Source: Nanobdellota archaeon (GTDB taxonomy: Archaea; Nanobdellota; Nanobdellia; Pacearchaeales; GW2011-AR1). From it: DNA of 32,253 nt. The stretch covers positions 1-32,253 of the forward strand of contig JAJZAH010000001.1 of NCBI GenBank assembly GCA_021799535.1. The letters are read 5' to 3'. Every line of letters starts with the position of its first letter. Position 1 is the first letter of the stretch. Under the pieces are notes generated by a model that ran no database searches, was not told the DNA's origin, and saw only the letters and a list, made by a program, of their open reading frames with translations. The translations under genes and the position numbers were made by a program. This document shows, one piece after another, positions 1-4,670 of this stretch.

Positions 1-1917
1 AAGAACCGAACCGGAAGGGGACAGCTTTGTAACTGTATTGCTTCCCGAATTTGTAACCCAAACATTGCCACTACTGTCTACCGCAGCGGATGTAGGAACT
101 CCACCGACCTTGACATCATTAAGAATAGATGCCGGATTAGAAACCTTGGTTGTAGTATTATCACCCCCATTGACTGTCCAAATGTTACCGCTTGAGTCTA
201 TTGCAATAGATTCGATATACCTCCCAACGCTATAATTAGCAAGGAAAGAACCAGAATTAGAAAGCTCAAATATTGTTGTACCAAAAACGTTACCTACCCA
301 AACATTGTTACTTTTATCCACTGCTAAAGCAATAGGAGTACCTCCATTAAGGTGATATTGACCCAAATAAGAGCAAGAGTTAGAAATTTTTGTAATATTT
401 CCTGTGTTCCATTGAGAAGTCCAGACATTGCCATTACTATCTATAGCAAGACTATTCGACCCCTGATTATAAGTACAAAGGACCGCCCCAGAAGAAGAAA
501 GCTTTGTTAATAAGCCCAATGCCTCAACCCAAATATTACCACTTGAGTCTATTGCAATAGCGTAAGGGTCACTATCCGAGATAGAATAAACCCCTAAAAC
601 AGATCCAGAATTTGAAAGTTTTGTAACAGTTCCACCACCAACATTAGCTATCCAGATATTGCCGCTTGAGTCTATTGCAAGTCCTCTTGAATCGGTCGCA
701 TATCCGTGAGGGTTTGTTGGAACACTATAAGTCCCAAGAACTGAGCCTGAGGAAGAAAGCTTCGTAACACTACCAAAATCAAACCTTGTTGTAGTATTAT
801 CTCCTGCATTGGCTGTCCAAAGATTTCCACTCGGGTCTATAACAACAGAAGAAGGATTCTTACCTACGGCATAAGTTGCAAGAGGAGAACCGGAGTTGGA
901 AAGCTCGGTTACTGTTGTCCCAAAGTAATTACCCATCCAAATATTATTATTTTTATCTACCGTTACAGCAATAGGAGTACCATTAAAACTATACTGACCA
1001 AGATAAGAGCAAGAACTAGAGAGTTTCGTAACGTGGCTATTGATCCAACTCGTAACCCAAGCATTCCCGTTACTATCAACAGCTATATCATTACCATTAT
1101 AACTAAGATTCGTATTTGTACAAAGTTCAGAACCCGAAGAAGAAAGTTTCGCAATGCTTGAACCGACAACCCAGATGTTGCCACTACTATCTGTCGTGAT
1201 AGAAAGAGGACCATTGGCACCAGCGTTGTAAGTGCCAAGAACCGAACCGGAAGGGGACAGCTTTGTAACGTTCCCGTTAGAGCCAAGAACCCAAATGTTA
1301 CCACTTGAGTCTATTGCAATATCCTTCGAACCAATATTGGAACTTGTTGAAACACTATAGGTCCCTAAAATAGACCCTGAGGAAGAAAGTTTAACCACCT
1401 TACCACTGTTAACAACCCAAACATTGCCACTACTGTCTACTGCAACCGAAAAAGGTGCACTTCCCCCACTGGAATAAGTCCCAAGAACCGAACCGGAAGG
1501 GGACAGCTTTGTAACTGTATTGCTTCCCGAATTTGTAACCCAAACATTGCCACTACTGTCTACCGCAGCGGATGTAGGAACTCCACCGACCGAGATACTA
1601 TTGGCTCCACCTCCATTAGCGACCCAGACATTGCTGCTTGAGTCTATTGCAATGGAGTAAGGGTATTTCCCAACGGAATAAGTGCCAAGAACACTCCCGG
1701 AACCCGAAACTTTTGTAACAGTGCTACTACCTGAATTTGCAATCCAAGAGTTTCCGCTACCATCTATTGCAATTGCCAATGGCCAACCCCCAACCCGAGT
1801 AGTAGATGTCTGCCCCAAAACACAAGCAGCCGCGTAAACTCCATTTAACGAAAGAATCAAAGAGAGAAATAGGGACAAAAACAAGAAACTAAACACAATC
1901 ACACTCCTTTTCTTCAT
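1..1917 (-). CDS. Secreted multi-blade beta-propeller (NHL/Vgb-like) repeat protein, C-terminus beyond window
   Basis: The minus-strand frame is open from the ATG at 1917 to position 1 with no stop: 639 codons, C-terminally incomplete. Residues 1-29 are a signal peptide (MKK, long hydrophobic core, then NGVYA before AACVLG), so the protein is exported. The rest is at least 15 tandem repeats of about 40 residues with core patterns IAIDSSGNIWV, TVTKLS and SGSVLGTYS, as in NHL, SMP-30/Gluconolactonase or virginiamycin-B-lyase-like beta-propellers. No catalytic residue set of Vgb lyase can be assigned, so the function is unknown; a cell-surface binding or adhesion role is inference. Repeats 6-9 and 11-14 are homologous at a 213-codon period, and repeats 2-3 and 14-15 at 494 codons. 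Repeat 2 lacks the usual TVTKLS half. Cysteines occur in the mature repeats only in repeats 6-7 and 11-12. A TATA box 26 nt upstream implies a leaderless transcript. Confidence 0.85.
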   Translation of the reverse strand, partial: MKKRSVIVFSFLFLSLFLSLILSLNGVYAAACVLGQTSTTRVGGWPLAIAIDGSGNSWIANSGSSTVTKVSGSGSVLGTYSVGKYPYSIAIDSSSNVWVANGGGANSISVGGVPTSAAVDSSGNVWVTNSGSNTVTKLSPSGSVLGTYSSGGSAPFSVAVDSSGNVWVVNSGKVVKLSSSGSILGTYSVSTSSNIGSKDIAIDSSGNIWVLGSNGNVTKLSPSGSVLGTYNAGANGPLSITTDSSGNIWVVGSSIAKLSSSGSELCTNTNLSYNGNDIAVDSNGNAWVTSWINSHVTKLSSSCSYLGQYSFNGTPIAVTVDKNNNIWMGNYFGTTVTELSNSGSPLATYAVGKNPSSVVIDPSGNLWTANAGDNTTTRFDFGSVTKLSSSGSVLGTYSVPTNPHGYATDSRGLAIDSSGNIWIANVGGGTVTKLSNSGSVLGVYSISDSDPYAIAIDSSGNIWVEALGLLTKLSSSGAVLCTYNQGSNSLAIDSNGNVWTSQWNTGNITKISNSCSYLGQYHLNGGTPIALAVDKSNNVWVGNVFGTTIFELSNSGSFLANYSVGRYIESIAIDSSGNIWTVNGGDNTTTKVSNPASILNDVKVGGVPTSAAVDSSGNVWVTNSGSNTVTKLSPSGSVL

Positions 1918-1937: not shown

Positions 1938-1947
1938 TTTTATAAAT
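1938..1947 (-). promoter_or_regulatory. TATA box of the propeller gene
   Basis: Minus-strand TATTTATAAA is centred about 26 nt upstream of the ATG at 1917. This is the distance seen before most genes here and predicts transcription starting at or next to the start codon. Confidence 0.6.
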
Positions 1948-2019
1948 ATTTTGCTAATAGAAGAAGTTTCCACTAAATTTCAGATTAAGGAAATTAGTAG
2001 AAAAATGCCTATAAACTTT

Positions 2020-2318: not shown

Positions 2319-3215
2319 GTGAAAGCAAAAAACACCCTTATCTCAATTTTGAGTTCGGCGGCAATTCTTTTTTCGGCAAATAACACCATCGCGCAAATTC
2401 CGCCAGGAAATGCAGAAAAGGTTTCAGTTCGTAATACCCCTGCGCATGCAATAAGCGTAGAAGATGATTTCAGACTGGATTATACAACTCAATCACACGC
2501 CTTATGGGGGATAATTTCCTTCTGGAAAAGAACAGCAACATGGGAGAGCCAATCATGCAATGTAATTCCAAGCGAAAAAGAAAATAAAAAAGTCATGAAA
2601 GTAGTCAACGGCACGGCACTGATAAAAAACCCTCTGGGAGATTTGGATGTGCAGTTCAGAGTGTATATAGACAGTCTCGGAAAGCCAATAGAAAGCATGG
2701 TTGCAGATTATAACTGCCAACCAAACAGGCTGACATCTCTTGACAGCACGACAATGAAAGAGGAATTTCCTGAAAGGTGGAAAGAAATAAGAGGATTTCA
2801 TATGAACAGGTTTTATTATCCTGAAAAGATCGTTACAAATGGGACCGGAAAAGGGTATAAGATTGATTCTTCAGTTGCAGATGTGCAGACGACATATTTT
2901 TCAATATGCAATGTGATAAGGGATGCAGATTCAAGAAAAACTCCGCTTCCTTTTGACACAACGTTAGAAGTTATCGAAGATTCCACTATCTATCCGGTTA
3001 AGATGCGAATAGAAGAAGGGAGAGAAAATTATGCAAAGGTGAATCTGTACATAAAAAAAGGGAAAGACGGAAAACCTCCGCCGGATACTCACGGGCTTGA
3101 CAGAATAACCCTTCTTATCGATAGAACAAATTACATTCCGAAATCAATAAAGGTGACATTATACGACGGTTTAGCTTCTGCAGAAGTTAAATTAAAAGAT
3201 TACGAAGTCAGATAA
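2319..3215 (+). CDS. Secreted protein of unknown function, DUF3108-like C-terminal half
   Basis: The GTG at 2319 is preferred because TTTTATATC lies 24 nt upstream and the N-terminus is a good signal peptide (KNTLISILSSAAILFSANNTIAQ), giving a 298-aa exported protein. The mature part is soluble, beta-rich and polar with no further membrane segment. Its C-terminal third (residues about 210-298: YPVKMRIEEG, YIKKGKDGK, ITLLIDRTNYIPKSIKV, then KLKDYEVR) resembles DUF3108 or outer-membrane-lipoprotein-carrier-like folds, in which a beta sheet ends in a 'how far from the derived value' strand series. That match is from memory and weak. Three cysteines (in SQSCNV, YNCQ and SICNV) could form disulfides. 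The gene converges on rtcB with a single base between the two stop codons. Confidence 0.7.
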   Translation: MKAKNTLISILSSAAILFSANNTIAQIPPGNAEKVSVRNTPAHAISVEDDFRLDYTTQSHALWGIISFWKRTATWESQSCNVIPSEKENKKVMKVVNGTALIKNPLGDLDVQFRVYIDSLGKPIESMVADYNCQPNRLTSLDSTTMKEEFPERWKEIRGFHMNRFYYPEKIVTNGTGKGYKIDSSVADVQTTYFSICNVIRDADSRKTPLPFDTTLEVIEDSTIYPVKMRIEEGRENYAKVNLYIKKGKDGKPPPDTHGLDRITLLIDRTNYIPKSIKVTLYDGLASAEVKLKDYEVR

Positions 3216-3216
3216 T

Positions 3217-4617
3217 TCACCCTATTATTACAATGAAAGGTTTCAATCTTGCGACCTTTTTTGATATGCCTAAGTTATGAATCGTTTCGACAACACTATC
3301 GATGTCTTTATAGACTTCGGGAGACTCCTCCGCAACAAGCCTGGCGCTTCCCGATTCGACGATTATATTCTCTTTAAGAAGCCTTTTCTTTGTGCTTTCA
3401 CCTTTTATCATCTTCACAGCGCTTGACCTTGACATTTTTCTCCCTGCCCCGTGGACTGAAGAGCCAAAAGTAATCTTTTCGGATCTTTTCTGCCCAGACA
3501 TGATATATGAGGCTGTACCCATGGATCCGGGAATTATGACTGGCTGTCCGATTGTCCTGTAAGGCAAAGGTATTTCTTTCCTGCCAGGACCATAGCTCCT
3601 TGTCGCCCCCTTTCTATGGACACAGACTTTCATTTTTTTTCCCCGGATTTCATATTCCTCAATCTTGGCAATATTGTGGCACACTTCGTAAACAACTTCA
3701 ATTTCTGGATTCGGAAAATGTTTTTTCATTTCTTCTCTTATAAAATAAATCAGGACTTGCTTATTGGCAAATGAAAAATTCGCAGCAGCAGCCATGGCAG
3801 AAAGATATTCTTTCCCTAGTTTCGAGTTCACGGGAGCTGCGGCGAGCTCCCTGTCGGGGAGCTTATCCGTTCCATATTCATCTTCCATCTTTTTTATATA
3901 ATCAGAAGCTACCTGATGGCCGAGGCCCCTTGAACCGCAATGAATCAAAATTACAACCTGATTTTTTTTAAGGCCGTAAACTTCAGCCGCTTTCAAATCG
4001 AAGATTTTATCAACAGAGAGGAAATCTAAAAAATGGTTTCCTGCGCCTATAGTTCCCAGTTGACCTATTCCCCTTTTTTTTGCTTTTTCAGAAACCAGCG
4101 ACGGATCAGCACCAGGAATACATCCTTCCTCTTCACAATAGAGATAATCTTCAGGCACGCCATAACCTTTTTCGACAAGGTATTTCGCTCCTTTCTTTAA
4201 AATTTCATCAAGCTCTTTGTAAGTTACCTGAAAAGGACTCCCTCGCCCGACACCTGAAGGGATTTTTTTGTTCATAGCCTCGGCAAAAGCTTTTTCTTTT
4301 CCTTTGAAATCTTTGATGGACAGGTTTGTCCTCAGAAGAAGAACTCCGCAATTTAGGTCATAACCTACTCCGCCCGGAGAGATCACCCCTTTATTCACAT
4401 CAAAGGCAGCCACACCTCCTATGGGGAAGCCGTAACCTCTGTGACAATCGGGTAAAGCGATTGATTCTCCGACAATTCCCGGAAGTTTGGCTACATTCCT
4501 GACCTGCTCAATTGTTTTATCCTTTTTTATAGCCTCAAAATCCTCTGAAGACGCGTAAACAACTCCAGGAACAAGCATCCCCTCTTCTCTCTCTATCTCA
4601 TGACGATAATTTTCCAT
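3217..4617 (-). CDS. rtcB: RNA-splicing ligase RtcB (3'-phosphate/5'-OH RNA ligase)
   Basis: RtcB joins tRNA exon halves after intron removal, using GTP and Mn2+ to guanylylate an active-site histidine. The family is clear from GGVGYDLNCGV (metal-binding Cys at residue 90), GTIGAGNHFLDF, IHCGSRGLGHQ, PGSMGTASY and SVHGAGRKMSRS, whose histidine (residue 389) is the guanylylation site. The length of 466 aa is normal. I start at ATG 4617 (MENYRHEIE), not at the TTG 15 codons earlier, because a TATA box (4639-4647) sits exactly 26 nt upstream of the ATG and inside the longer frame, and family homology begins near this point. No intein is present. Its activating partner, archease, is encoded at 7281-7691 at the end of the pilus operon. 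Confidence 0.96.
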   Translation of the reverse strand: MENYRHEIEREEGMLVPGVVYASSEDFEAIKKDKTIEQVRNVAKLPGIVGESIALPDCHRGYGFPIGGVAAFDVNKGVISPGGVGYDLNCGVLLLRTNLSIKDFKGKEKAFAEAMNKKIPSGVGRGSPFQVTYKELDEILKKGAKYLVEKGYGVPEDYLYCEEEGCIPGADPSLVSEKAKKRGIGQLGTIGAGNHFLDFLSVDKIFDLKAAEVYGLKKNQVVILIHCGSRGLGHQVASDYIKKMEDEYGTDKLPDRELAAAPVNSKLGKEYLSAMAAAANFSFANKQVLIYFIREEMKKHFPNPEIEVVYEVCHNIAKIEEYEIRGKKMKVCVHRKGATRSYGPGRKEIPLPYRTIGQPVIIPGSMGTASYIMSGQKRSEKITFGSSVHGAGRKMSRSSAVKMIKGESTKKRLLKENIIVESGSARLVAEESPEVYKDIDSVVETIHNLGISKKVARLKPFIVIIG

Positions 4618-4638
4618 AGAATACTTTGACAAAAGGCG

Positions 4639-4647
4639 TTTAAATAA
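4639..4647 (-). promoter_or_regulatory. TATA box that fixes the rtcB start
   Basis: Minus-strand TTATTTAAA is centred 26 nt upstream of ATG 4617. It lies within the 15-codon TTG-initiated extension, so that extension is probably not translated. Confidence 0.6.
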
Positions 4648-4670
4648 GTTAGTTTCGGACAAGATAAAGT

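Follow-up and report, generated by a model that had tools for sequence, protein, structure and literature searches.

Which kind of protein is encoded by the open reading frame that runs off the start of this DNA, and how did its long array of repeats come about? The window, meaning the whole stretch analysed, comprises bases 1-32,253 of contig C3 in genome G000 (746,762 bp in 8 contigs). The frame is open at the window start, which is also the contig start (G000:C3:1), so that 639 residues can be read, and its neighbours include genes for MCM, an ATP-dependent DNA ligase, a PilB3-like ATPase and RtcB, a set that points to an archaeon of small genome, most probably of the DPANN group. We consider it probable that the gene encodes a C-terminally anchored surface protein, the ortholog of a protein found at this locus in related species, whose cysteine-rich head has been replaced by about three seven-bladed propellers that grew by recombination of blade blocks, and that this head most likely binds a ligand on a partner cell or in the matrix.

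Blade repeats and block duplications

The features on which the argument draws are as follows.

1..1917, minus strand: surface-protein gene, 5′ part (639 codons), continuing on contig C6 (L003:1-1485)
1828..1917, minus strand: signal peptide, residues about 1-30, with KKR and a hydrophobic stretch (from sequence; AF2 helix at residues 4-23)
1..1806, minus strand: array of 15 blade repeats, r1-r15, residues 38-639 (Pfam SGL, Vgb_lyase and NHL)
1603..1686, minus strand: r2, a shortened blade of 28 residues with one beta-hairpin missing (repeat count and AF2)
788..1591, minus strand: block R copy A, 804 nt, r3-r9, seven blades; both ends recur identically (window 1-109 and C6:1-125)
1..109, minus strand: start of block R copy B, truncated where the contig stops; same sequence as gene nt 327-435
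784..981, minus strand: older block copy 1, residues 313-378, r8-r9; 73% DNA identity at a 213-codon offset
145..342, minus strand: older block copy 2, residues 526-591, r13-r14; 73% DNA identity at the same offset
1938..1953, minus strand: probable archaeal TATA box (CAAAATATTTATAAAA) before the start codon, also present at the syntenic surface genes in four sister genomes
2319..3215, plus strand: divergent neighbour, a conserved 298-aa secreted protein, found in the same place in G002
3217..4662, minus strand: RtcB, conserved syntenic neighbour that anchors the locus

The 298-aa neighbour has no match in Pfam. Between it and the surface gene lies a 52-aa ribbon-helix-helix/VapB-like ORF (2153-2311), for which the matching intergenic region of G002, only ~130 bp long, has no room.

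The initial annotation had described a secreted protein with at least 15 blade-like repeats that leaves the window, and each of these points holds: a signal peptide is present, and 15 repeats carry the motif D..[GSN]N.W, spaced mostly 36-42 residues apart. Two repeats depart from the common length: in r2 a hairpin of about 12 residues is missing, and r9 bears a 15-residue insertion. At offsets of 1-11 repeats the mean amino acid identity between blades is 43-51%, and it clearly exceeds 60% only in the pairs r3/r15 (92%) and r8/r13 (72%).

The block repeats proposed at 494 and 213 codons are real and stand above the background of blade-register matches. The best gapless DNA identity is 0.96 over 40 codons and 0.68 over 66 codons at an offset of 494, and 0.75 and 0.73, respectively, at an offset of 213, against a median of 0.34-0.38 over all offsets and a next best offset of 0.61 over 66 codons. 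The 494-codon repeat includes 109 nt of identical DNA, gene nt 327-435 being the same as nt 1809-1917 at the C3 end. For the 213-codon repeat, described initially as repeats 6-9 matching 11-14, the DNA match stands, with support mainly from r8/r13 and from the conserved spacing; on amino acid identity, permutation of repeat order does not separate the block from chance (p 0.73 for four repeats). Because of this shuffling result we regard the older, five-blade duplication as likely rather than certain. Growth of the array by block duplication, as originally suggested, is supported by the DNA matches at both offsets.

A conserved anchor with an apparently exchanged head

When the genome was searched with the propeller protein, the only other matching place was the start of contig C6. 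Over its first 125 bases C6 is identical to gene nt 1006-1130; beyond them it diverges and encodes a stalk of 450 residues and then a transmembrane helix with a KKVKRSVKGKSHKRG tail. As both contig ends are identical to parts of block R (nt 327-1130), both contigs stop inside this block. Copy B begins behind r14, and at its other end the final blade passes into the stalk through an r14-like GATAATACTACAACCAAG stretch. The simplest join would place a 570-nt gap, in frame, between C3 and C6 and would give a gene of 3972 nt encoding 1323 residues with 14 + 7 = 21 blades, where the gap length presumes that copy B is spaced like copy A and is drawn from contigs rather than reads. The word "giant" in the initial annotation was too strong, given ~1323 residues as compared with 964-1202 in complete syntenic relatives.

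The join is supported by gene order in G002, where RtcB is followed, on one strand of one contig, by genes for a surface protein of 964 residues and a dockerin/Por_Secre protein and then by a CoA-ligase-like gene, which is the order seen in G000 across C3 and C6. In G010 and G006, too, RtcB lies near the surface gene and the dockerin/Por gene lies downstream. The two junctions of block R differ, one being r14|r3′ and the other r9′|stalk, which fits unequal recombination between similar blades. The head probably grew in two steps, in which near-identical blades would have recombined unequally: an older step of five blades, and a recent one in which block R would have been copied behind r14 with a net gain of seven, for example by a gain of 12 blades and a subsequent loss of five.

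Surface proteins that match the stalk and anchor occur in 29 of 55 genomes (G000 counted), the best matches lying within the genus; C6:130-1482, which spans both parts, shares 42% identity with the surface protein of G002 and 39% with that of G010. The TATA box is invariant upstream of the start codon in five genus members, which also share a similar signal region. The head is what differs. Relatives have heads that are cysteine-rich without a Pfam match or that contain DUF4215, and the comparison of copy number across related genomes, a check proposed in the initial annotation, found a propeller in none of 54 (0/10 in the same genus, 0/44 further afield), whether by sequence or with the PF24684 profile. 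G000 shares with its genus the synteny, from RtcB to dockerin/Por_Secre, and the C-terminal stalk and transmembrane anchor, whereas in place of a cysteine-rich N-terminal head it has a propeller with five cysteines in 639 residues. Because promoter, signal region, stalk, anchor and neighbours are shared and the head is not, the gene is, as judged from sequence, an ortholog of the genus-wide anchored surface protein with its head exchanged rather than a standard member. The membrane anchor and stalk, the end of the gene on C6 and this apparent head swap go beyond the initial annotation. The encoded protein would begin with a signal peptide, ~21 NHL/Vgb-type blades and a stalk containing cysteine-rich and beta-rich domains, and would end in a transmembrane helix followed by a basic tail; a DPANN-type archaeon would display such a single-pass, C-terminally anchored protein at its surface.

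Base composition gives no signal of horizontal origin, with GC and GC3 of 0.42 and 0.32 in the propeller part and 0.40 and 0.31 in the stalk. The best matches, at ~40% identity, are to proteins of bacterial MAGs, which says little about origin because repeat families converge. It is also conceivable, though we think it unlikely, that there was no recent swap and that an ancestral propeller disappeared from the sister species or diverged beyond recognition there. Similar propellers do appear in scattered members of the phylum (15 of 371 genomes sampled, G000 included), but the absence from all 54 relatives extends to the profile search and their syntenic genes bear cysteine-rich domains instead. 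The propeller proteins of the phylum (L072-L082) were inspected and are not treated as orthologs; those with readable ends lack a stalk of the G000 type. Two of them, L080 (G395:C21) and L078 (G379:C4), are long frames of 2329 and 823 residues with blade arrays of a different sequence type, so that propeller arrays seem to arise repeatedly in the phylum.

We give still less weight to an assembly artefact in the block repeats or the contig join, in which a simple 14-blade array was assembled wrongly and the gene on C6 is a separate one. Both contigs do end within repeats, and identical blades are hard to assemble, as PMC9218822 warns; yet a break at both ends of one block is what a real repeat would produce, the two junctions differ, the genome has only two propeller places, and G002 has a single surface gene between the same neighbours. 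The 213-codon block, diverged to 73%, cannot be an artefact.

Returning to the exchanged head, we can advance a broader idea only tentatively: the genus may keep one syntenic surface anchor and promoter while exchanging heads of unrelated fold between species as a partner-recognition cassette, the head growing here by whole propellers through block recombination so that the blade count stays a multiple of seven.

Two neighbours of the surface gene merit separate mention. Directly downstream, on C6 (L003:1596-3764), lies a gene for a secreted protein of 722 residues that combines a dockerin with a sorting domain of the type IX secretion kind (Por_Secre_tail). Of the 11 genomes of the genus, 9 have a match to Por_Secre_tail. 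Cohesin was not found in the genus, and a search for SprA of the type IX secretion system gave no match; as the control genomes gave none either, this result carries no information. In two sister genomes the RtcB ORFs (L068:453-3269 and L069:2376-5204) are about twice the usual length, at 938-942 residues, and probably contain an intein.

Fold, probable rings and proposed function of the head

That the array has a propeller fold, and that one chain contains several propellers, had both been proposed, and our results support both points. Pfam scores lie above the curated cut-offs for Vgb_lyase (115 bits, cut-off 50), SGL (132, 26) and NHL (85, 20), and the relatives by sequence in the PDB are PknD (1rwi), the Pizza6 designs and the streptogramin B lactonase 2qc5. 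The AF2 model, made from an alignment of 10 sequences for the truncated 15-blade piece, is all-beta, with four strands in most blades and a pLDDT of 83.9; within the array, pLDDT falls below 50 only at residues 305-307, between r7 and r8. The top Foldseek match for the whole chain is the highly repetitive propeller 2ymu. The stalk on C6 is modeled poorly (pLDDT 46).

The structure prediction suggested initially as a way to count blades thus yields a propeller-like model, and the count it gives is that of a truncated input, which probably folds as 7 + 8. The best single-ring matches, Cake8 and Scone-E (TM 0.86-0.87), are designs that we take to be eight-bladed, which suggests that r8-r15 close as a ring of eight in this model. 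For the natural protein seven is the better estimate as judged from close bacterial homologs, which carry seven repeats each (L006-L008), 7 + 7 (L005) and 7 + 14 (L004). The ~21 blades would accordingly be arranged as three rings of seven, although the first would not be a clean seven because r2 is a half blade. Residues about 280-640 of L004, a protein from a bacterial MAG, appear to form a seven-blade propeller that splits a fibronectin type III domain in two, which would be a natural marker of seven blades as one closed module.

Several rings carried by an anchored stalk would point to a head that binds multivalently at the cell surface, and contact with a partner cell or attachment to a matrix ligand would be its most likely work. 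Cell-surface proteins of Nanoarchaeota are enriched in non-synonymous variation and have been proposed for host contact (PMC6142677), a finding that supports the idea of contact in general and not for the propeller gene in particular.

Enzymes of the streptogramin lyase and SMP-30 lactonase type are single propellers with histidine and acidic residues at a metal site; a virginiamycin B lyase has its catalytic histidine and its metal-binding glutamate in defined places. A secreted enzyme or sensor of this type is an improbable alternative to a binding head: no Pfam family fits better than Vgb_lyase and SGL, and 2qc5 is among the sequence relatives, but a stalked membrane protein with 14 to 21 blades is unlike a single-propeller enzyme, and the propeller part contains 3 His and 5 Glu in 639 residues. 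Enzymatic activity of the head thus appears less likely than binding.

Comparison with known propeller and surface proteins

The blades belong to the family of the virginiamycin B lyase and NHL propellers (PF24684, PF01436; 2qc5, 1rwi, Pizza6), with which they share all-beta repeats of ~40 residues and four strands. Those structures are single propellers, whereas here 15 blades are visible and ~21 are expected, on an anchored stalk and with few histidines. The closest sequence relatives are the bacterial proteins L004, of 1218 residues, and L005, of 950, at 40-41% identity, with 7 + 14 and 7 + 7 blades; they come from a MAG labelled as a bacterium, lack the G000-type stalk and have an FN3 domain between or around their propellers.

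Within the genus, the surface genes L058:5090-7984, L059:4212-7820, L060:4445-7393 and L061:2-2740 share with G000 the stalk, the IPCPAQVQL..FFDW element with its transmembrane anchor, the dockerin/Por_Secre gene downstream and, where the contig allows, RtcB upstream; where the 5′ end is present, the promoter and signal region are also alike. Their heads are cysteine-rich without a Pfam match, and none has a propeller. Partner-cell recognition by ultra-small archaea is poorly known, and an anchor with an exchanged head is a concrete candidate for species-specific contact.

Highly repetitive multi-propellers (2ymu; the 15-blade KAE9403162.1 described in PMC9218822) resemble the present array in having many like blades in one chain and ongoing amplification; their closure into consecutive rings is a probable further likeness. 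The study behind PMC9218822 worked with a median internal blade identity of >60% and reported mostly single-blade amplification, with one case of two blades. Here internal identity is ~45%, below that threshold, and growth proceeds in blocks of about five and seven blades, which makes the array a useful case for propeller evolution. The fold, the family and the arrangement of several propellers in one chain are already known; growth by multi-blade blocks and an exchange of the head on a conserved archaeal anchor are less usual.
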